From Opisthocomus hoazin (lineage: Eukaryota > Chordata > Aves > Opisthocomiformes > Opisthocomidae), in contig NC_134417.1 in the NCBI RefSeq assembly GCF_030867145.1, forward strand, positions 6,177,577-6,241,576: 64,000 nt of DNA, written 5' to 3'. The position numbers and the translations under genes were made by a program. Within the stretch, counting starts at the first letter, position 1. Each line of letters starts with the position of its first letter. Below, piece after piece: positions 697 through 60,819 of the stretch. The notes beneath the pieces are model-generated. The model was not told where the DNA came from, searched no databases, and saw nothing but the letters and a program-made list of their open reading frames with translations.

Positions 697-3557
697 CTTG
701 CTTATTGCAAGCGATCAGCAGCGCGGGTGCGTTTTTGAGCACAGTGCTATCGACCAGGACCTGGTACAGGAACTCCGCCACATCCTTCACCTCCCGCTGG
801 AAGGCCACACTGTCCACCACAAACACAATGGCTCTGGAGAAAAGAGGGAAGAACACGTGCTGGGCCTGTAACCATCTCTCCCTGCAAGTATTCCAGCCTG
901 GGCTAACACATTTGTTTCCACCACTGATCTCATCCAACTCAAGAAGTTAGCACACGCTGGCTGAAATACACCCCACGTCCCACCACAGCAAGAAACCTTT
1001 CCCTCTCTGCCCCATGGATATACCACATACCCTAAACCCTCCCCGCTGCAGTGGCTTTGCCTCCTGATGCACTATGACCACAGGTCAGAGGGAAAGCAGA
1101 ATAACAACCCCCACTACCCCATGGCAGAGCTGACTGTCAGGGCACCACCGCACAGAGCGAATCCAGCCCAGCTCACAGCACCCCCAGCACCACCATTTGG
1201 TCCATCCCTGTCAAAAACATGACCTGACCCCTCCTGCCCAGCCAACCTCCTCCAAGTTACCTGGCTGCAGCCTTGAACCTCTCCAAGAACTGAAGCCGCA
1301 AACTCTCATGGCCGGGAAGGTCGATTAAGGTCACATTAGCACTCTGGGAACAGAAGCAAGAAGGTATTAGCAACACCTGATCCAGCAGTACCTGTGATCA
1401 TGAACCAGGGAAAACCAGTCTGATAGCGGATTCCAGTCAGCCTGGTGGTGTGGCAGCAGCGGGCGAGTGAGTCCCCATACTGGGCAGAAGCACGTAACGC
1501 TCCCCCAGGTGCAGGCACTCCACCAGCCCACGCAATTCTGACAGGCAAAAGAAATGCTGAGGAACAACTCTCATGGCCCAGGCTCAGTACGGAGGGCACT
1601 ACCACCAGCAAACCACCCACCAGAGCAGAGAGGACAGAGCACGACCGCAGAGAAAAGAGAATGTTCAACCTATTTCCCATCCACAGTAAGCCCCCTACAA
1701 CCGCCACACGCACAGCGTGAGTGACAAAGCTTCATCGGTCGCCGCAGAGTTACACTGTCTCTGACAGCAGGTAGATCTCTGCACAGCAAAACCGCAAACT
1801 CCCATCCTGCAAGTCCCTGATAAAGAACGCTAATCCTACGGTCTCTGAATCAAGTTACCTAGTCACGCACACAGTCTACCCAACTACGCAAAACTTCGCC
1901 GAGAATAACACAAAAACACCCTTGCAAGAGGCTTTTTAAATTGAAAGTTGCAAACACTTCCTTTTCCACAGCCTGCCAGCCAAAGCAACGACAGTAAAGC
2001 GAACGAATGCCCCTCACGTGCTCCTGACTCAGATGGGACCAAGTACGGCGATATCACCGTTCTCAAGACAATGCTCGTTGCTCTCAAGAGGGGAGAGAAT
2101 ACTACACAAGACCCTAACTGCTCATTGCTCTTGGATTTTAATGGAAACCTTGTCTACAATTTAAAGAAAGAAAAGCAGCAGTTTGCATTGCATCATTCTA
2201 ACACCTCACCCCCTGCAAACACCTCCTGTCTGCTCAATCTTAGTAGCATAAAAAAATAGAGCCCTGCATTTCCCTTTAGTAATTTTTTAACCTCTTATCA
2301 TCACCACTGTTACTGAAGATTGCCACAGAGAAGCCACAAAACCATCCTCAACTTTTACAATTCACCAGCACGTAATGTGCTGCCAGCTTGCTGCTTTCAC
2401 TGCCACGTGGGCACCCGCCACGAGAAAAAACCTCTTCTGAAACTAGAGAGATCACCGTAAGCTGCAAAGAACTAGGTCTGTGGCAGCCCAGGACCTGAAA
2501 GTAACCAAACCCTTTTAGAGACCACAAGAAGTTCAGCTGGAGACTCTTCCTAAGCCTGCCACAGCTTTTAAATTCAGGTTTTCTTGGGGGACACAGAAAT
2601 TACTGCCAAGCAAATAAGCCAAACACAACAGAGCACTGTTCCCTCACAAGTCTCCCTCCTGCTTCGCACCACACCGCTGTGTGTTTTATTCCACTTGTAA
2701 AAGGAGCTCCTTTGCCTCCTCTGTTAAAAAGAAAACAAACAAACCACGTTACCCACCTTTCAAAACTTGACACACAGACGTGGTTTTCAGTCAAAAAGGT
2801 TTCCCAATTTGAGAAGCGAAGCAAAAAGAACCTGTGGTGATGAGGAGTCGCTGACACCTCCCGGTCCTTTCCCACCTTCCCAGAGCGCACCGCCCAGCAC
2901 AACCCAGCCCTGCTCTTGGCCCGCAGCGGGGACTGATCTGGGGCTGGCAGCGTCGCACCGGGTTCAGCGCGGGGAGCGGCGAGCCGGGGGCACGGGCCGG
3001 CCGGGCAGCCGCGCGCAGCACTGCCCGCTCACCTTGTCGCCGCCGGCTCTGTACACGGCGGAGCTGTCGGTTATCGAGGTCTGGGTGTCGCGGTATTTGC
3101 CCGCCAACAGCTGCGGAGGAAGAAAAAGCCGTTCTCAGGACGAAGCAGGCCACGGCGCCCGGGCCCCCCCCCCGCGGCCCCGCGCTCACCCGCGCGAACA
3201 GCAGCGTCTTCCCCGCGTCGCAGAGGCCCAGCAGCAGCACCGCCCTCCGGCCGCTCCTCCGGCCCTGCACCAGCCTCCAGAGCACTGCGGGCAGAGGGGG
3301 GAGCGCTCAGCGCGGGCCGCCGCCCACTCCGGCCCGGCCCGGCCCGGCCCCGCCGCCCCCTCAGCCCGGGCCGCCACCCCCCGGCCCGGCCCCGCCGCCA
3401 CCCCCCGGCCCGGCCCCGGGGCTCCCCCCGCCGGCCGCGACTCACAGAGCGTGACGGCGACGGCGATCAGCGCCAGGAGGACGGAGAGCACGGCGGGGCC
3501 GGGGGCCCGCAGCTCCCGCCGCAGCGCCTCCAGGTGCGGCTCCAGCCGCCCCGCCAT
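697..3557 (-). CDS. SRPRB: Signal recognition particle receptor subunit beta, exons 1-5 (3' part off the window)
   Basis: Membrane-anchored small GTPase that tethers SRP receptor alpha to the ER during co-translational targeting. Coding exons on the minus strand: 3446-3557, 3190-3284, 3033-3110, 1261-1343 and 697-833, all with GT-AG junctions and matching phases, giving 168 residues. The start is the ATG at 3557; an ATG 18 bases upstream in frame is less likely because the family begins near here. Residues 21-43 form the single N-terminal membrane segment. The P-loop GLCDAGKT is residues 57-64, the G3 motif DLPGH 103-107, and the G4 motif NKQ 166-168 falls exactly at the end of exon 5. The family is about 265-270 residues, so roughly the last 100 residues lie left of base 1; I found no exon in 1-690. 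Identity is from the close match to vertebrate SRPRB (for example the SFQREVKDVAEFLYQ-like helix, here AFQREVKDVAEFLYQ). Confidence 0.96.
1344..3032 (-). other. SRPRB intron 3
   Basis: 1.7-kb intron between exon 3 (3033-3110) and exon 4 (1261-1343). Donor GTGAGC at 3032 and acceptor CAG at 1344-1346 on the minus strand. No repeat or embedded gene recognised. Confidence 0.85.
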
Positions 3558-4039: not shown

Positions 4040-4345
4040 AACGCACGGCTGTTCAGCCTGGAGACGAGAAGGCTGTGGGGAGACCTTCTTGCGGCCTTCC
4101 AGTACCTGAAGGGGCCTACAAGCAAGCCAGAGAAGGACTTTTTACAAGGGCATGGAGTGATAGGACAAGGGCTAATGGCTTCAAGCTAAAAGAGGGAAGA
4201 TTTAGGTTAGATAGCAGAAGGACATTCTTTGCTGTGAGGGGGGAGAGGCCCTGGCACAGGCTGCCCAGAGAAGCTATGACTGCCCCATGTCTGGAAGTGT
4301 TGAAGGCCAGGCTGGACGGGGGCTCTGAGCAACCTAGTCTGGTGG
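4040..4345 (+). mobile_element. CR1 LINE fragment, 5'-truncated, plus orientation
   Basis: Carries characteristic CR1 ORF2 3' text: the CTGTTCAGCCTGGAG block, the AGGCTGCCCAGAGAAG block and the GGCTGGACGGGG-CTCTGAGCAACCT block. The terminal octamer repeats are missing, so the copy is truncated at both ends. Coding frame is broken. Confidence 0.9.
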
Positions 4346-5090
4346 AAGGCGACAGCAGAGACAGAGGCCAGCACCGGCTGGGAGGAAGGTGGCAGAGGCA
4401 CTGAGGCCACCAGCCCTTCCCCGGGCAGGGCCAGGAGCACATCCCCGCAGGGGCCAGCAACCCAGCGCGGAAGGTACCAGGCACAGCTCCTCTCAGCATC
4501 CCGGTGCCGGCCCTGGAAACAGCGGCTCAGCGGCTTGGCTCCAAGCCCCGTCCCGCTCCAAAGGCCAGCGGAGAATGGCCGCGTTCTCTGTCGATGCTGG
4601 TCACAGCGCCTGGCCGGGATGGATTAGTGGGGCTCGGTTACACGTGAGAAATTCAGTCGAGGGGCTGGAATAAAATCAAGAAGCAGCAGATCAAAGCCTT
4701 TAAACACCGGTCGCCCAGTGAGGCTCCGTTGCAGATTCAGCCTCTTCATCCCTCCCCAGCCCCAGCGCGGGCTGAGGGCCGGCTCTGGTGGGGGCACGAG
4801 CCGACGCCACCCTGCAATACAGCCGCAGTGCCAGAGCGGGTTGCACTGTGCCGTGAGGGGGGGAGTTTGTGAGAGCCCTGCGAGGGCTGGGTCTTCCTCC
4901 AGGTACCAGAAAGCCACCCGCCAACGTCCTGCCTCCTGCTCCCCTGCAGTGCTGGGCAAGGACAGAAAGGGCCACCTCGACGCCCGGTGTGGCCTGGGGC
5001 CTCCGCTCAGCTGTGCCAGGGCTGCCTCCCCCAGCCCGGAGCCTCCCCGCGGGCCTGCAGCCCCCCGCAGCACAGGGCAGAGCGGGACTG
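4346..5090. other. Spacer between CR1 and pentamer repeat
   Basis: GC-rich non-repetitive DNA. The only structure I see is one copy of a duplicated ~68-bp segment at 4437-4505 (second copy at 5345-5410). Confidence 0.6.
4437..4505. repeat. Copy 1 of a ~68-bp dispersed duplicate
   Basis: Starts with ACATCCCCGCAGGGGCCAGC and ends CTCTCAGCATCCC. It aligns with 5345-5410 over nearly its whole length with scattered substitutions. The two copies lie about 0.9 kb apart in the same orientation and bracket the pentamer microsatellite. Confidence 0.75.
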
Positions 5091-5264
5091 GGAGAGGAGA
5101 GGAGAGGAGAGGAGAGGAGAGGAGAGGAGAGGAGAGGAGAGGAGAGGAGAGGAGAGGAGAGGAGAGGAGAGGAGAGGAGAGGAGAGGAGAGGAGAGGAGA
5201 GGAGAGGAGAGGAGAGGAGAGGAGAGGAGAGGAGAGGAGAGGAGAGGAGAGGAGAGGAGAGGAG
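5091..5264 (+). repeat. Near-perfect (GGAGA)35 pentanucleotide microsatellite
   Basis: About 35 uninterrupted GGAGA units, all purine on one strand. There are essentially no mismatches, implying recent expansion or ongoing instability. Open frames read through it are meaningless. Confidence 0.98.
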
Positions 5265-5344
5265 GGCTTCTCCCAGACCTCCAGCTCAGCCTCTTGCCTT
5301 GCCTCTCTCCCTCTCCCTCTCTCCCTTCCCCTTCCCCTTCCAGG

Positions 5345-5410
5345 GGTGCATCCCCACAGGGACAGCAAACCGGCATGGAAGAAACCAGGCGTGGCCCCTC
5401 TCAGCATCCC
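5345..5410. repeat. Copy 2 of the ~68-bp dispersed duplicate
   Basis: Second copy of the 4437-4505 segment, running GCATCCCCACAGGGACAGC ... CTCTCAGCATCCC. It abuts the 3' end of the TOPORS-like gene, immediately downstream of that gene's polyadenylation signal. Confidence 0.75.
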
Positions 5411-5417
5411 CCATGGT

Positions 5418-5423
5418 TTTATT
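5418..5423 (-). terminator. AATAAA polyadenylation signal abutting the TOPORS-like stop codon
   Basis: Minus strand reads TGA followed at once by AATAAA (TGAAATAAAACC). A canonical hexamer directly after the stop predicts a 3' UTR of only some 20-35 bases. Confidence 0.6.
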
Positions 5424-5987
5424 TCAGAGGGGCCCTGGGGGGCCCCGCTGCCCCGCTCGAAAGTGGAGCAAGGGCAGGCGGCGCGCGTGGTCCCCTGAGC
5501 CCGGCTCTGCCTCCCGGAGCCTCCGCAGCCATGACGGGTCTTGGCGGATCGCCATCAGGATGTAGAGCCGTCTGTGCTCGTCGTTGTCCCACTGCCCGGA
5601 CAGGCTCTGGCCATGATGGCGGGGCATGGGTGGTCTGCGCTCCCCAGGCTGAGAGACGAATCTCTGGCGTCGGGGACATCTGGAGCCCCGCTGCTGCTCC
5701 TGCCACCACAGCCACAGCCACGTGCAGCGACGGAAGCGGCCGTGGTGACGGCGGGCCACCCGAGCATGGTCATCCTCTACCCGCAGGCGGCGGATGGCCA
5801 TGATGGGCTGCCGGCAGAGCGGGCAGGAGGCAGCGACGGCGGTGGCCACCCAGCGCTGGATGCAGGCATGGCAGAATACATGCCTGCACGGGTCCACGCT
5901 AGCGGGGTGATCAAGGGGATCCAAGCAGACGGGGCAGGTGTCCCCACCGCGGGGAGATCCTGGCCGTTCCTGGTGTTGCCAGCTCAT
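5424..5987 (-). CDS. TOPORS-like RING-finger protein, intronless, 187 residues
   Basis: Single open frame from the first in-frame ATG (5987) to TGA (5426-5424). Residues 18-58 form a complete C3HC4 RING: C18, C21, C34, H36, C39, C42, C55 and C58. The text around it (CPVCLDPLD near 18, CPLCRQP near 55, then an RVEDD run) closely resembles the RING and following segment of TOPORS, a ubiquitin/SUMO E3 ligase; E3 activity is therefore likely but inferred. The rest is Arg-rich (blocks near 70-125) and has no domain I recognise. Full TOPORS is about 1,000 residues, so this is a short relative, probably retroposed. A polyadenylation signal directly follows the stop. A degenerate 27-bp repeat lies just upstream. 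No neighbouring-gene function can be inferred; it sits between TF and SRPRB on the same strand. Intactness argues for a real gene, but it could be a young pseudogene. Confidence 0.7.
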   Translation of the reverse strand: MSWQHQERPGSPRGGDTCPVCLDPLDHPASVDPCRHVFCHACIQRWVATAVAASCPLCRQPIMAIRRLRVEDDHARVARRHHGRFRRCTWLWLWWQEQQRGSRCPRRQRFVSQPGERRPPMPRHHGQSLSGQWDNDEHRRLYILMAIRQDPSWLRRLREAEPGSGDHARRLPLLHFRAGQRGPPGPL

Positions 5988-6005
5988 GCCTGGATGCCTG
6001 CAGTC

Positions 6006-6236
6006 CTGCTGCTGGGACACGCCGTCCTGTCAGCTCCTGCTGGGACTTGATGTCTCGTCTGCTGCTGGCAGGACTTGATGGGTGCTGCTGGTGGGAATCG
6101 CAGACTTGGGTTCCGCTGGCAGAACTCGGTGGCTCCTCGGCTGCTGGCAGGTCGCAACGTCTGGTGTGCTGTTGGCAGGACTCAATGGCTTGGGTGCTGC
6201 CCACAGGCCTCAACGTCTCGTGTGCCACTGGCAGTG
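6006..6236 (-). repeat. Degenerate ~27-28-bp tandem repeat, 8-9 units
   Basis: Units on the plus strand start CTGCTGGCAGGA(C/T)... and recur roughly every 27-28 bases (range about 23-29) with heavy divergence. On the minus strand one frame is open through the array and reads as 9-residue blocks rich in S, Q, A and P. It lies directly 5' of the TOPORS-like ORF but in a different frame, so it is probably 5' flank or UTR. Confidence 0.65.
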
Positions 6237-6330
6237 CGGCCGGCATGTACTGCTGCTCAGCACAAGCGATGTCATGGTGTGACTGTGACTCTCTGGTGAC
6301 ATCACAGGGCTCTCAGGGGCACAACCGGTA

Positions 6331-8019: not shown

Positions 8020-22779
<14,760 letters not shown>

Positions 22780-44500: not shown

Positions 44501-45484
44501 CAAGCCATTGCAAACCCCAGTGATGGCCCTCACCCCACCCATTGCTCCAGCAATTGGTCTAGCCCCCAGGGTTGGAAATCTGGGTCCTAGGACTCCTCTC
44601 CCCCTCACCAGAGAGGTGGGCACCTTCCCACACATTCATCTCAATCCAGGTGCAGGCTTGCAAAGGGACCAGAGATGCCTGCTTTCCATGTGCATCTTGC
44701 CCCACAACCCTAAGGAAAACCCACCAGCAGTCCCACCAGGCCATGGACAGGCCAAGCAGGAAAGCCTTTGCATGGGGGTGGCAAGGTCCTGGGTGTCTTG
44801 AGGCAAGCCGAGATCTCCTTGCTCATCATATTAAGCAGGGGTGAGAATACAGGGACACAGGATGAGAAGGTACTGGAGGCTTCTGCCATTAGCTGTCTTT
44901 GGGGCTCCAGCCTTCCGCTGAGACCAGGCTGAGATCAGCCCACCCCAGGTAGTGAATGAGCACACCATGTGGGAGGGGGCACATACCCTCGTAGTATGAC
45001 CCTATGAGGGTCATACTCAGCAGCGGGCACCTGGGGCAGTTCTGCACCACCAGGACACTCTTCACATGTACGCAAAAGTTATGAGCCTGTTAGGTCACCC
45101 CAGCAGGACCTGGCTGCGTGGTGAGCAGAGACAGAGCCAAATCCCTCCTACAAGAGCACCTTTTCCTTCTCAAGAGATGCAGCTGCAAAAGATGCATTTA
45201 CCTGCCCATATCCTGAGCCCTGCTCCAGCATGTGCGGGAAGGAAGAGACCACCAGGTGTAATCTCAGAGGACTGCCATCTCCACCAAGGCCCTCAGACAC
45301 TGGTCCACAAGTAGAGCCACATTCCATGCAGGTCACGCTCAGAAACAGCCTCTCTGGCATGCAGTTGCAAGGTAGCAGAAGCAGCCCAAGAGATCTGCTG
45401 AAGTACTGCAGATGTGGCCTCCGACACAAGAAGCAGGCAGGTAGATGACGGCATGTGCTGTGCTTCACGTTACCAGATCCAAGC
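41571..45484. other. Intergenic DNA
   Basis: No gene recognised. A perfect 11-bp inverted repeat sits at 44993-45017. Confidence 0.5.
44993..45017. repeat. Perfect inverted repeat, 11-bp arms, 3-bp loop
   Basis: AGTATGACCCT, ATG, AGGGTCATACT. The arms contain two GGGTCA hexamers pointing outward. Confidence 0.9.
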
Positions 45485-45955
45485 GAGACAAGACAAGGGC
45501 TACAAAGATGATGAGGGGGCTGGAGCATCTCTCCTACGAGGAGAGGCTGAGGGAGCTGGGCTTGTTCAGCCTGAAGAAGAGAAGGCTGAGAGGGGGCCTA
45601 ATAAATGTTTATAAATATCTCAAGGGTGGGCGTCAAGAGGATGGGGCCAAACTCTGTTCAGTGTTGCCCAGCGACACGACAAGGGGCAATGGGCACAAAC
45701 TGAAGCACAGGAAGTTCCAGCTGAACATGAGGAAGAACTTCTTCCCTCTGAGGGTGACAGAGCACTGGCACAGGCTGCCCAGGGAGGTTGTGGAGTCTCT
45801 TTCTCTGGAGATATTCAAGACCCACCTGGACAAGGTCCTGTGCAGCCTGCTGTAGGTGACCCTGCTTCTGCAGGGGGGTTGGACTAGATGACCCACAGAG
45901 GTCCCTTCCAACCCCTACCATTCTGTGATTCTGTGATTCTGTGATTCTGTGAAGA
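45485..45955 (+). mobile_element. CR1 LINE 3' part, plus orientation, low divergence
   Basis: Clean CR1 ORF2 end from GGGCTACAAAGATGATGAGG through GCACTGGCACAGGCTGCCC to GGTTGGACTAGATGACCCAC, closing with four tandem TTCTGTGA-type octamers. A 136-codon frame (45445-45855) is still open. 5'-truncated. Confidence 0.96.
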
Positions 45956-51000: not shown

Positions 51001-54000
51001 AGTCACAACAGTTGATGATTTTTCTGGAATAAACCCAGTTTTTCAATAGCAAACCCAAATTTCTGACCAGTACCAATGGGATGCATGTGACCACTTCAGA
51101 CAGCCCACGTTTGCATCATTGCTAGCTCATCGAGCTAGTACATCTCCCACATCTCACAAGACTGCTCAGAGTGGAAGATAAAGCAACATGGAAATGAAAA
51201 AGCTCTGGGACGAGCAGGTCTGTACAGTCCCAGGCCCACTCTCTTGGTCCAAAACTGACCACTGAAGGAAGCAGGCAACATCAGCAAGCACAGATTAGCT
51301 GTTGGAACTTGGATTCCAAGCAGACTCTGCCCAGATCTCTGCTTTCATTAAGTCCTCCTAGTTAGATCCCTCCGTTTCATGCTCAGCAAAGCAGTCTCTG
51401 CCTGCTCCCTCCCTCTGAGCGGGGGAGGGAGAGCAGACATCTGGGTCTTGCAGGCTGGACTCCCACCCAAGGAGGAGCCCGCAACAGAGGATTTAACCAG
51501 ATTCTAAGCACAAATCATCTCCTGTTAAGCAACAATATGTTCCCTGGGTAGAAAACAGCAGAAATGAAGTGCAAACTAATCCTTTTTTTCCAGGAAGCTT
51601 AGTCCCTCAACTGCTCGACTGAAGTCTAAGATTAAGACTACGATCAAGCTCCACCAGGGTTTGCAGCAAGCCCTACAAACAGTAGAAGCCCTGTGGCGAT
51701 GTTTTTCATGGCCTGAACATCCCCACATACAAGCTAAAATCCCATAGGATAGTGCTGATCACTTGAAGAATTCATGCTACCATTGTGGACTTGGCTAAAA
51801 CCAGACTAAAACCGTGCCAGGTCACACACCAGAGAGGCAGAGCTGGGGCCCCCGCAGTAGCATCACGTCTGGAGCTGCGCAGGTGGCAATCAGCTCCAAT
51901 GGCAGGCATCGAGAGAAGGGGAGAGCGGGGAAAACCAAGTTTTACTGTCTTTGTTTATAGCGACAGGGTCCCGATATTTCTAGGCCAGGCAGGGCAGGGC
52001 AAACGCAAGCAGTGCCTGCTCCTGCTGCCAAAACGGGGGCTCAGGCTGTGCGGGTGAGGCATTCCTGAGCAGCCAAGGGACTTTGTGGTTATCACTATTT
52101 ACCTTTCGGTGCGATATTTGTGTCGCGGCTGGAAATTTCCACTAGGCTACACTGCTTGTGCACAGCCTCTGAAGTTCATTGGTTATCGCTGGCTCTGCAC
52201 CTCTTCTACCTGTGAAAATGTGACCTTACCCTAAAAAAAAAAAAAAAAAAATACATATATGTAAAATTTAAAGAAGTCCCAAGGCTCTTTCCCCTCTGGC
52301 TCATACACACATTTCTTCTACCTACTAATGGTCTGAAATATCTGTTTCCTTGCAGGAAATTGAAAGCGATATACAGGTGCCAGCCAGGTCGGCTCTGGGT
52401 CTTCTTCAGCCTCCTCGTCCTCCTGTTGGTCACGCTTCAAGTCGTGGAGAAGCTGCAGCCTTCCAGGTAGGTCTCAAGCAGGACTGCAGACCTGCACCTC
52501 ATGCTCCAGCCTTTCACTGACCACTGAGGTGGGCTCAAAACCGCACTCGTGAAAACCACCCAGCAGTGTCTTCTTTAGATATGTAGGAAAGTCCAGGTGA
52601 GAGAGGACCTCTGTGGGGGTCTCGCATCCAACCCCTATGCCCTGACCAAAGCTGACCCCACTCTGGGTTCAGACCAGGCTGCTCCGGGCTTTGTTCTGGC
52701 TGGCCTCAAAACCCTACAGCCCCTGACCATCCTCCCAGGCCTCCCAATCTGGGGTCATTTGCAAAGTTTCCTCCAGCTTCTCCAGGTCACCTGCTCTTCT
52801 TTCTCCTTGCCTTCTCTTGCTTTGCCCCTTTTGACCAGCCCACGGTGCTCCAGGGGGACAGGGGCATTAGCACGCCCCTGCTGACACATCCTTCTCCTCT
52901 CGCACGCACCCTGACCTCCCAGGTCCTACAACCACTAGCAATGCCACCCACCCCAACAAAGACAGGGGAACGTGCTTTGGGGAGTCTGCAGGGGGGGTTC
53001 ATTAAGCTGGAGAGGAGTTGCCCTCTTTGCATGCTCCTTCCATCCTCTGCATGTTTGCCGCTGAGCTTCACGTCCCCCGTGTTACAGAAACTGCCAATGT
53101 GAGCTGGAGCGTGCCCTGCAGCAGACCACAGGCCATGGCCAGAAGAGGCTGAGCTATGCCCTTCAGACCCCCGACCCGCTGTTGGAGGACAATCCCCTGC
53201 AGTGGCAGAGGAAAGCCATGCCGGACTCCACTTCGACAGAGAGCATGCAGGACGTTTTTCAGACGCACCTGTACTTCAGTCAGGAGACCCCGCTGGAAAG
53301 CAGCCCAGGCAGCCAAGAGGAGCACCGGGTGTGGCAGCCTGTGGAGGAGAGCAGCAAGCAGATGAAAGCCCATCCTTCATCCACAAGGCTGAAATCCCAG
53401 CTTCCTGGCCCGAGTAAAGCAACCAGAGAGGGTCCTTACCTAAGTCTTCCTAAGAGGATCTCTGCAGTTTTGGGAGATGCTAATGCTGTCACCACCAAGT
53501 TCATAATCTTTGCAAACAGGATGACTGCAGAGGAGCACAGGAGAACATCACCACCAGGAACAAGGCAGGTGGTGGCACAGAGCCAGTCTCAGCCTCAAGA
53601 CACGGGTCCTCCCCACCATCAGTGGGGCAGCTTGCTTAGACATTCCTTGCCAAATTCAGCTCCACCTCCACAAGCAGAGGGCTTTTACAAGGCAAACTTA
53701 GAGAGAAGATTTTTCCCGAGCTGGACAGAAGTCTCTAAGAGTGACAAGGTGACTCTTGGAGAAGGCCAGCAGGCCAGAGGGGTCTCCTCTCAAAGGGAGA
53801 CGTGTGAGCCCAAGACTGACATTGTTTTCCTCAAAGTCCACAAGAGCGCCAGCAGCACCGTCATGAACATCCTCTTCCGCTTTGGTGAGACGCACAACCT
53901 CACCTTTGCCTTCCCCATCGGGGGTGGCAACCAGCTCTTCTACCCGCACCCCTTCTTGGCGAGGTTCGTGCAGGGCTTCTCCCCCAGGAGCCCTCAGCGG

Positions 54001-55584
54001 TTCAACATCCTCTGCCACCACATGCGATTCCTGCAGCCGGAGGTACAGGCAAAGCCGCGATGCCTTGGGAGGGATGAACATGGGAGGGAGAGGGGGTCTC
54101 GTGGGGAACAAGGTGGGGCACCCATAGAGCACATAAACTTTTCAGGGATGAAGCTAAAGAGAGACGGGATTGTCCCCAGGTACCTTGCATGTCATGGGCA
54201 TCTCCTGAGAGCTTCTGTAACAGGTTTGATGAATCACTGTGCTGTGACCTGAGACAAGTCAGGGGACAGAGTCTGTAGCAGTCAGTAACTATCATCTTGT
54301 TCTTCTCTGGTTGGCTCTTGGAGATGCTTTGCTCCTTGGACAGGCCCAGAGGGTACTAGCTGCAAGAGCAGAATGCCTTAAGCACATCAGCTCAGGTCAG
54401 CCAGGCCCAGAATCCACCCTTCTGGATGTCACTTGAGGACATGCACAGCTGGGGAACAGCAAGGAGATAGGACATCTCTCAAGCCCGGACAGGCCACCCA
54501 GCTGTGGCAGCATGTAGCAGGGAGCTTTGGTCACTGCTCTCCCATGTACCTCTTCTGGAGCTCCCTACAACTGACACAAATGCTCCTCTGATGACCTGCA
54601 CCCTCAAACCCTCTCCAGCACCCACCACCTCCAACACCAGCAAGCGTTTCTGCTTTCCAGCTGAGCACAGCATTACTAGTGAGCAGGTCTCATCTCCCTA
54701 CCCCACTTTTGAAACCTCCTTATTCTCCTCCGCAGGTAGAGAAAGTGGTGTCCACCTCAGCTGTCTACTTCTCCATCCTGAGGAACCCCGTGCAGCTCAT
54801 GGAGTCCTCCTTCGCATACTACAAGGGCGCGTCAGCTTTCTCCCGTGCCCGCAGCCTGGAGGAGTTCCTCAGCCAGCCCTACCACTACTACAACTCCACA
54901 CACCACGACAGCCACTATGCCAGGAACCTCATGGCCTTTGACTTTGGCTTCAACCCCAACGGACAGGTCTCAGCCAAGCGGGTGCAACTCATGCTGAAGG
55001 CCATCGAGGCATCCTTCGATTTGCTCCTCATCTCCGAGTACTTCGATGAGTCCATGGTGCTGCTGAAGGAGATGCTGTGCTGGGACCTGGACAGTATCGT
55101 CTCCTTCCCACTCAACATCAGGGACAGCAGCACCAAGTACCCCCTCTCAGACACCATCATGGAGAAGATAAAGGACTGGAACAGGTTGGACTGGGAAATT
55201 TACATCTACTTCAACAGGACCTTCTGGCAAAGGATCGACCGCGACATCGGCAGGGAGCGCATGCAGCGGGAAGTAAAGGCACTTCGGGAGAGGCGGGCAG
55301 AGCTGGCGAGGACCTGCCTGCAAGGCATGGGCAGCGTGGCCCCGAAGGACATCAAGGACTCTTCCCTGAAGCCACTGCAGCACGGCAGTGCAAAGATCTT
55401 GGGCTACAACCTCAAGCAGGGCTTGGATAAGGAGACGGAGCACATGTGCCGGCGGCTGGTGACCCCGGAGCTGCAGTACAGCAGCGCTCTCTACAAGAAG
55501 CAGTTTCCTCAGAAGCCCCCCCAGCCCACTCACCCTCGACAGGGCAATGCCCTGCGGCACAGGCTGGAAGGCACCCAAAACTGA
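48024..55584 (+). CDS. GAL3ST2: Galactose-3-O-sulfotransferase (GAL3ST2-like), 4 coding exons, 647 residues
   Basis: Golgi type II enzyme that transfers sulfate from PAPS to the 3-OH of galactose on glycoproteins. Coding exons: 48024-48052, 52356-52466, 53088-54042, 54736-55584. Phases fit and total 1944 bases. Residues 1-23 are a basic cytosolic tail, 24-41 a membrane anchor ([12 protein letters not shown]), 42-288 a Ser/Thr/Pro/Gln-rich stem, and 290-645 the catalytic domain. The 5'-phosphosulfate loop KVHKSASST is 296-304; the 3'-phosphate motif YFSILRNP is 376-383; sequons lie at N317, N418 and N525. The [11 protein letters not shown] and RLVTPELQY runs near the C-terminus fit GAL3ST2 better than its paralogues. 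Family members are about 400-490 residues; the extra length is all stem, encoded in exon 3. Exon 1 is chosen for its CACCATG context, GTAAGT donor and exact phase match; it is the least certain part. Confidence 0.88.
48053..52355 (+). other. GAL3ST2 intron 1 (inferred)
   Basis: 4.3-kb stretch between inferred exon 1 and the membrane-anchor exon, donor GTAAGT and acceptor TTGCAG. Contains an AATAAA at 48946-48951 and a poly-A tract near 52232-52252. No CR1 seen. Confidence 0.6.
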
Positions 55585-58712: not shown

Positions 58713-60708
58713 TCAGACACGAGGCTTGGAGTTGCTCGTCTCCCCTTTCCTCTTCCGCTGTGGTTCGTCACCCTCCACGTGTGCCGCCGCCCTTGCCTTA
58801 GGTATCTTGTATTTGTTCTTCTGTCTGTAAAGGAGGTTTTTCTGGAAGAGTCGTGGGATGTTGCCTTGGTACAGCAGGAGGGCAGCGAGCATCCCTGAAA
58901 CGAGAGCACGGAGCCCTTCCGTGTGCTGTATCGAGCATCTCCACGGCTGAGCAGTGATTTTCATGCCCTTGGCACAACCTTCATGATAACCAAAATGTAG
59001 CTCAGCACCACTGAAGTCACCTCTGACAGTATCTAAAAGACCCTTACTATGTTACTGTAAGCAGAATTTAACCATTGTGTCCTTAATATAATAACGAGGC
59101 TTGTTTTGACCCAATAGGGCCATAAACCACACCAGCGGTCTTCTGTCGCTGCTCCCTGCATCCTAGGCAGCATGTATCCAGCTCCCCATGGTCATCCTGA
59201 AGCTGTGGACAACCTCAACAGCCTAGTTCAGCCCTCATTGCCCTAAAACATCTTTTCTTCATCTCCCCGAAACTCTGGCCTCAGGCAGAGTTTTTGCCTG
59301 TGTCCCATCTAGAAATTGGATTTTAAAAATTGGATAGCAAAGGGACGACTCGAGTGACAGGGAAAGGGGACAGAAAAGGACGCTTGCCGCTGGCAAGACC
59401 CAAGTTCAGCCCTTTGCCAGGAACGGTTTGTGTTACACCCAGCATTTCTGCCTTGCCCACTGCCCCCCCTGCCAGCCCCTGTCCCCTGGTACCTCCCAGG
59501 CAGATCTCACCTGCAAGGGGCCCCAGCCAGTAAACCTGGACGTAGTCCCAAAGGCTGCTCCCCGAGCAGTGGAAGGTGATGGCTGTGGCCAGGGCAGGGT
59601 TGAAGAAGGCCCCTGTGAACGGTCCGGCTGTGTGGGGAGAGAAGCACGGCCTTCAGTCTCGCTTGTCGGCCTTTCAAAGGATGTGAAGATCTGGGCCAGG
59701 AGACCCATGACCCCTCCTGCCTGCCAGGAACATCCCTGCTGCTGCCCGGCTCTGGCAGCCGCATCTCTCTGACTGTGCAATAGCAGCACACGGGGAAATC
59801 CCACCCTTGTCGCCCTGAGCTTTGTGAGAAGCAGAAGAACTCAGACCGAGGGGTTGTGTTAGGGGATGCTCAAGCAAAGTGCTCCCAGTCTTGGGGCAAG
59901 CTGTGGCTTCTCATGTGCTGACATTTCACCTACTGCAGTCTTCTTCCCCCAGGGAGCATCCCCCCCCCCAGGGAGCAGAAAACAAGCATCTTAGTAATTG
60001 TTACCTCTCAAGTCCTGAAAGATGAAAAAGAGACCATTCTTCCCCCACGAGTTAGGTAGTTTTCTGAATGACTTAGAAAAAGAAAAGCAAGTATTGCTCA
60101 CCTGTGTAGGTCAGGAAGGTGACAGTCGCTGCCAGCGCAGGGACCCGGTACATAGGGTGACTCTGTTGCAACTTGAGAAGGACGAGGTGGAAAAGGAAAG
60201 AGCAGGTGCCTTCCACAAAGGCAGCGTGGTGCAGAGAGGTGTGGATGGAGGAGCTGCACTCCGACGCTATCAGGTTCTGGATGAGGTGGAAATGCGTCAG
60301 CTCCCAGGACCAGTAGAGCTTGGTGACAGCCCAGCCTGTCCCCATGCCTGCACCCTGGGCCAGGAGCTTGGCAGCAGTTGCAGCAAGGTTGCAGTCGAGG
60401 AGCAGGAACTCCTGGAGAGAGACTGTTGGGTTGGCAGATGCTCCATCAAAAGAGGCACCATGAACAGCAAAGAGGAGGAAGAGCAGAGTGAGGACCACGT
60501 CTGGGCCAAAGCCACCACCCCACAGGCCGATCTCCAATAGCATCCTCAGCTCAAGGCAGCTCATGCACAACTGTAACGAGCCAGCAAATTCTCTGGAAAG
60601 GCAGCCATATGCTCCAGAAGACAGAAGCTTCTTGGAAAGCCACCTGAGCACCTGGCACACCCCGAAAACCAGGAAAAAAAAGGCAATGGAGACATTCAGG
60701 CCAGCCAT
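58713..60708 (-). CDS. AQP12: Aquaporin-12, complete, 3 exons, 301 residues
   Basis: Intracellular superaquaporin known from pancreatic acinar cells, where it is linked to zymogen granule handling. Exons: 60102-60708, 59511-59627, 58713-58894, all GT-AG, 906 bases in frame. The start is the ATG that gives the family N-terminus MAGLNVS; the 55 in-frame codons upstream have no counterpart. The first pore motif is the AQP12-type NPT (residues 93-95, in DGASANPTVSLQEF) and the second a normal NPA (212-214, in FFNPALA). Six hydrophobic segments are visible. The C-terminus carries the family sequence LFQKNLLYRQKNKYK and a basic tail. Human AQP12 is 295 residues. It is convergent with GAL3ST2. Upstream lie a TATA box and a PTF1-like bipartite site. 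Confidence 0.96.
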
Positions 60709-60773
60709 AGCAAAGGTTAGGGGGAGAGGCTGGACCAAACCCCAGGAAGGAGCAGAGAGCTGCTGCACCTCTG

Positions 60774-60780
60774 CTTTATA
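60774..60780 (-). promoter_or_regulatory. AQP12 TATA box
   Basis: TATAAAG on the minus strand, 66-72 bases upstream of the AQP12 ATG, predicting a 5' UTR of roughly 40 bases. Confidence 0.65.
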
Positions 60781-60819
60781 AAGCCGCATGTAAGCAAACG
60801 TGGCACAGCCCGACAGGCT

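Follow-up and report, generated by a model that had tools for sequence, protein, structure and literature searches.

An uninterrupted open reading frame of 187 codons at 5424–5987 on the minus strand of the Opisthocomus hoazin DNA analysed here (64,000 nucleotides; hereafter the window) encodes a short, strongly diverged RING protein of the TOPORS family. We judge it fairly probable that this frame is a coding-competent, recently duplicated copy that is most likely dispensable, and the best-supported history is that of a once constrained TOPORS-like gene that has become a young duplicate without constraint at the level of the copy group. The frame specifies the RING and the start of the post-RING region followed by a tail of its own, with the remainder of TOPORS absent; a unit of roughly 2 kb, recently duplicated as DNA, accounts for the present copy number; and the copies as a group drift with no purifying selection detected, the intact RING being gone in 2/3 of the other copies. 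An annotation pipeline would probably call the frame a gene, but, as its copies show, intactness and a perfect RING are also compatible with a mere young duplicate.

The frame runs from ATG to TGA (stop codon 5424–5426), and the nearest in-frame stop upstream ends at 6030. The set of eight RING ligands is complete (C18, C21, C34, H36, C39, C42, C55 and C58), in agreement with an earlier sequence-only reading that had described an intronless 187-codon frame carrying the full ligand set and had called for a search against domain profiles. In that search, Pfam zf-RING_2 matched residues 16–59 (40.9 bits, E 2.5e-10); NCBIfam profiles gave weak RING matches only, all under their cut-offs. The RING finger itself (residues 18–58; 5814–5936, minus strand) is delimited by Pfam, the family alignment and AlphaFold2, and has the C3HC4 ligand set by which RING-type ubiquitin ligases are recognised. 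Two further segments follow on the minus strand: a post-RING flank (residues 59–113; 5649–5813) with an ‘RVEDD’ motif and an SRCPRRQ stretch, collinear with TOPORS, and a C-terminal tail (residues 114–187; 5427–5648) for which no relative was detected beyond the near copies. Supplied with 17 family rows from the same genome, AlphaFold2 returned block means of 89–94 over residues 21–70, with an overall mean pLDDT of 60 and 102/187 residues below 50; the tail was mostly below 50 except for two helices at 135–160. The prediction from the single window sequence was uninformative (mean pLDDT 35). G+C content by codon position is 71/57/79%. The protein contains 32 Arg and no Lys; this composition was considered as a special trait and set aside, since 365/5000 permutations within codon positions were also free of Lys.

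Frame length is weak evidence for a gene, because 202/1000 dinucleotide shuffles of 5265–6330 held a frame of at least 187 codons. This count is what favours an open frame that arose by chance in GC-rich repeat DNA, with no gene behind it, a reading that we regard as very improbable given the Pfam E value of 2.5e-10, the TOPORS-family homology described below, and the occurrence of the RING pattern in an ATG frame in 0/1000 dinucleotide shuffles of the same interval. For the RING, a chance origin is refuted; only the tail could be young sequence. The RING pattern is loose, and one further ATG frame of the real window, 45151–45528 (minus strand), fits it; as a second RING frame this candidate was rejected as probably due to chance.

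Kinship with TOPORS is supported by several comparisons. The window protein scored 62 bits in BLASTP against the 999-aa TOPORS of the same genome, and 60.8 bits (phmmer, 48.3 bits) against a fragment of human TOPORS, with which the genome’s TOPORS, a single uninterrupted frame of 999 codons, agrees closely by eye. The TOPORS-like flanks of the sequence-only reading were thus borne out: in the post-RING flank, a match of 47.9 bits reaches residue 79, and some genome-search matches extend to residue 113 of the window protein. In the genome search, the best 26 matches beyond the four near copies (L005–L030) are all TOPORS or TOPORS-like frames, and an RNF146-like frame, so named by us from its sequence and presumably an RNF146-type gene (C2:70.59 Mb), appears near the bottom of the list (E 1.3e-5). 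That gene shares a RING finger with the window protein (48.5 bits in direct BLASTP), and the window RING is therefore closer to TOPORS than to the other RINGs tested (62 vs 48.5 bits). The RNF146-like frame nevertheless outscores some TOPORS-like frames in direct BLASTP (e.g. 45.1 and 47.8 bits); further TOPORS-like frames at 38–39 bits were truncated at a late ATG. The TOPORS-first order is therefore unambiguous among the best-scoring frames and becomes mixed further down. The best PDB match was a herpesvirus RING (39.9 bits, below the 48.3 bits of phmmer with the human TOPORS fragment), with no TOPORS chain among the best 60 listed, and tblastn with the window frame found no relatives in the viral contig and genome contig sets.

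The acidic motif after the RING adds to this kinship, reading RVEDD in the window protein and RAEDD in TOPORS; the form [DE]D[DN] occurs at this position in 15/17 aligned rows, the window protein and TOPORS included. It is absent from a shortened frame (the second L048 row, outside the alignment) and, unlike in the window protein, from the RNF146-like frame. The alignment holds 17 of the 26 rows available (the window plus 25), and the invariance of the ligands in it arises by construction, because the RING frames were gathered with a pattern demanding all eight; two of the near copies (C and D, below) were missed by this pattern. The window RING is of the same type as that of TOPORS, with the same ligand order and the ‘EDD’ flank, and differs from it by two extra residues ahead of the last ligand pair.

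Beyond this region the likeness fades. Residues 80–113 match the TOPORS order RFRYRTT...SRSPSRR weakly, with 36/1000 shuffles equally good, so that collinearity with TOPORS holds for the RING and its ‘EDD’ flank, extends weakly over the 35 residues that follow, and is absent from the remainder. The earlier description of a frame with almost nothing else of TOPORS holds accordingly. For residues 114–187, the comparisons carried out, among them one with the genome’s own TOPORS, gave no match beyond the near copies. By eye, the stretch DPSWLRRL made the tail a promising counterpart of the conserved TOPORS region around GRYRDISAEFFRRNPACLHRLVPWL, which we take to be PWI-like; this assignment was rejected, as the match to the genome’s own TOPORS was no better than shuffled sequence (P 0.308, 500 shuffles). 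Further differences from TOPORS are the length of 187 rather than 999 residues, the lack of a detectable match to the GRYRDISAEFF region, and the presence of 1 RS/SR dipeptide and two tetrads resembling SUMO-interacting motifs (LYIL and LPLL), which are candidates by pattern match alone. TOPORS is a SUMO-targeted ubiquitin ligase that needs its RING for ligase activity and SUMO-binding motifs for targeting (PMC11402782). If the window frame is translated, its RING would, judging from fold and family, bind a ubiquitin-charged E2, and ubiquitin might be passed to whatever the Arg-rich tail holds. For targeting, the protein offers two pattern-level SUMO motif candidates and no detectable counterpart to the rest of TOPORS.

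The sequence-only reading had also suggested that the gene might be one of a family, and the genome (1.48 Gb in 415 contigs) confirmed this on two scales. At the nearer scale, contig C4 holds, besides the window copy (A), three further near copies: B at 6.49 Mb (93% protein identity), C at 7.05 Mb (89%) and D at 6.57 Mb (91%, residues 68–187). The number of duplicated units rests on this protein search of the genome. The copies span about 0.9 Mb of one chromosome. The duplicated unit in the window (4353–6326) is 95.1% identical over 1974 aligned columns to copy B, which is inverted; A matches C in two DNA pieces (95.6–95.7%) and D over 536 + 98 bp (97%). Shared flanks comprise 332 nt on the 5′ side of A, B and C and about 1 kb on the 3′ side of A and B, and because the matches continue through non-coding flanks the copies are DNA duplications. 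About 83 nt of 5′ sequence common to B and C is absent from A. The full-length copies differ by about 3–4%, a divergence so small that open frames are to be expected. Copy C has lost two zinc ligands by replacement (C21S and H36P), copy B carries W46R, both B and C carry L22S and D23G, and copy D has unrelated DNA where the RING half should be, so that only codons 72–187 are comparable. W46 is retained in the window copy, the only one of the four that combines a complete ligand set with W46 and the family ‘LD’.

These shared flanks also bear on the idea, part of the sequence-only reading, that the frame is a retrogene derived from a TOPORS-family mRNA. The frame lacks introns and an AATAAA lies directly past its stop, and decayed TOPORS copies with stops exist elsewhere (C1:43.79 Mb), all of which would suit retroposition. 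The lack of introns, however, says nothing on this point, because TOPORS itself, like the other intact TOPORS frames, is open over 999 codons; the near copies, having flanks in common, arose by DNA duplication, and neither a poly-A tract nor a target-site duplication was seen by eye at the ends of the duplicated unit. We regard a retrogene as improbable; these observations do not reach back to the first, older copying event. Decayed TOPORS copies with in-frame stops were observed at C1:43785183–43786752 and C41:21540324–21543106, 46–77% and 44–56% identical in pieces.

The AATAAA (5418–5423, minus strand) abuts the stop codon and is kept in all four copies; it is the sole one on the minus strand within 5265–6330, and by arithmetic such a hexamer is expected in a 30-nt stretch of local base composition with a chance of roughly 0.1%. 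The unit also contains a (GGAGA)n array of 34.8 copies at 100% match (5091–5264), which, judging from the translations, is shorter in C and D, and a degenerate 28-bp tandem repeat in the 5′ flank of the frame (6140–6234). Sequences around the frame that we recognise as CR1 fragments are presumably of that origin. A direct repeat of the 3′ flank (5323–5410) lies at 4414–4502 (core 72 bp, 78%). The interval 4340–5090 was examined as a decayed second RING copy beside the frame. Its best local DNA alignment scored 113, and none of 300 base shuffles exceeded 96, but only about 90 bp at the start of the alignment is convincing, and the translation gave no clear RING match (uncontrolled scores of 27–34); at most a fragment of such a copy may be present.

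Sequence change among the copies revealed relaxed evolution of the four as a group. Coding differences amount to 17/558 (3.05%) for A and B, 23/561 (4.10%) for A and C and 16/558 (2.87%) for B and C; the corresponding values are 9/332 (2.71%), 12/332 (3.61%) and 7/332 (2.11%) in the 5′ flank and 6/430 (1.40%), 8/428 (1.87%) and 6/428 (1.40%) in the far 3′ stretch. The coding DNA of A, B and C has therefore diverged at least as far as the flanks. The first 110 nt past the stop, AATAAA included, show 0/110 differences in all three pairs, which may reflect constraint, gene conversion or luck. By the Nei–Gojobori method with two transition weights, dN/dS was 1.54–2.81 in 6/6 copy pairs, D being counted in codons 72–187 only; these six values are not independent, because pairs share branches and some site patterns conflict, possibly through gene conversion. 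A hand count of the minimum changes across the copies gave 26 nonsynonymous and 5 synonymous. An omega of 0.5 was rejected (P 0.0012–0.0045), lower values more strongly, and an omega of 1 was not (P 0.10–0.19). A dN/dS below 1, the mark of purifying selection between copies, was found in none of the six pairs. The earlier suggestion that the gene is functional because it is intact is not supported, given these ratios, all above 1, and the loss of two zinc ligands in one copy.

The same data allow a more favourable view of the window copy, in which it encodes a small RING ligase under selection and is the functional source of the other three, which are decaying duplicates. Its unique combination of a complete ligand set, W46 and the family ‘LD’ fits this view, as does the AATAAA abutting the stop at a chance of roughly 0.1% per 30-nt stretch. 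In codons 13–80 the ratio of nonsynonymous to synonymous differences is 3:1 between A and B and 8:1 between A and C, and none of these changes falls on the window branch, which has 5 to 9 changes elsewhere (chance 0.10 to 0.017); the changes at codons 22–23 were assigned to B and C here, since LD, the state in most of the family, was taken as ancestral. This is a hint of constraint on the RING of the window copy alone. Against it, the window branch shows 4 nonsynonymous changes to 1 synonymous in codons 72–187, its coding DNA differs no less than the flank, and the window copy need not be the source because it lacks the ~83 nt of 5′ sequence common to B and C. We consider a selected source gene unlikely on balance, and favour a young duplicate that is probably dispensable. 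Over most of its history the lineage leading to it was probably under constraint, because both RING and open frame persisted along a branch of ~1.9 changes per column, on which the window protein and copy B are placed, without support for the placement, in a RING tree of 20 chosen rows.

At the wider scale, at least 149 places in the genome match the window protein (150/271 candidates scored), and sequence was read from 50 loci, some overlapping. Because only part of the matches was read, a few more of the 149 may be other RINGs, beyond the one RNF146-like gene. A tally of the listed match coordinates assigned 4 of the 149 to the window unit on C4, 14 to a TOPORS array on C41 and a further 18 to C41 outside that array, 44 to an array at C4 58.08–58.28 Mb (L038; mostly about 2.6 kb apart), 13 to C1 148.65–148.76 Mb, 18 to C6 53.6–53.8 Mb, 21 to C7 2.45–2.66 Mb and 3 to an array on C24; the remaining 14, including the RNF146-like gene, lie elsewhere. 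Open stretches in the C1, C4, C6, C7 and C24 arrays are about 130–560 residues long. TOPORS is known as a single-copy gene in mammals. In this genome, a tandem array at C41:33979605–34060254 (L034–L036) holds at least 14 full-length, stop-free frames of 999 aa that are 99–100% identical and mostly spaced by about 5,531 bp (46/6,210 candidates scored in the search with TOPORS), a copy number that may be affected by false expansion or collapse in the assembly. C41 is most likely the Z chromosome, because the Pfam Dmrt1 family has matches on C41 only and chicken TOPORS is Z-linked according to a passage of PMC1876622. TOPORS has multiplied here both as itself (14 copies) and, to judge from the genome search, as more than 100 RING relatives.

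Comparisons within this family show how far ratios near 1 can be read. In the C1 array the pooled dN/dS was 1.37 (10 copies, 45 pairs), and among the 14 TOPORS copies it was 0.94 over the first 590–594 codons (91 pairs, with very few changes). Between loci, the RING plus flank gave 0.27, 0.28, 0.40 and 0.44 in 4/6 pairs, whose tails gave 0.94–1.59; in the other 2/6 pairs the RING values were 1.41 and 2.08 and the tail values 1.04 and 1.12. Several TOPORS-like genes therefore pair RING conservation with rapid change in the tail, and a whole-gene dN/dS near 1 is by itself no mark of a pseudogene. A conserved RING with a fast tail, as in these 4/6 pairs, is the pattern expected for genes in conflict. 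It is conceivable, if rather doubtful, that the tandem arrays, conserved RINGs, fast tails, 14 Z-borne TOPORS copies and small satellites form a TOPORS-derived family of ubiquitin ligases engaged in an arms race, on a scale like that of zinc-finger or TRIM expansions; the window copy would then be a reduced ligase, or a protein that competes for E2 or substrate, selected while its duplicates decay. A gene named Topors-like is differentially expressed in chicken (PMC7563548) and, to go by its name, may be a member of the large family that makes up the present arrays. TOPORS also figures in passages of two bird papers (PMC9643717, PMC11439032). Among the literature matches listed, which scarcely cover subscription journals, none dealt with an expansion of TOPORS genes in birds.

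Within the window, the frame stands between TF and SRPRB, as the sequence-only reading had placed it, and all three genes lie on the minus strand in the order TF, RING frame, SRPRB. SRPRB was identified by similarity search (E 8.1e-63; exons 698–3557, ATG at 3557), and the RING ATG (5987) is ~2.4 kb upstream of the SRPRB ATG. Two TF C-lobe exons (11221–12545) match hen ovotransferrin, which is the best match of the joined exons (E 5.7e-79), and a TF N-lobe exon lies at about 18.6 kb. We know of no gene between TF and SRPRB in mammals. Rfam gave 0 matches over the whole window. Farther along, a 238-aa frame at 60073–60789 (minus strand) has no Pfam match at E 0.001 and resembles what we take to be an aquaporin-12-type protein, and a galactose-3-O-sulfotransferase gene is present in two open pieces at 53218–55581 on the plus strand (Pfam PF06990, E 1e-30 and 1.5e-75).
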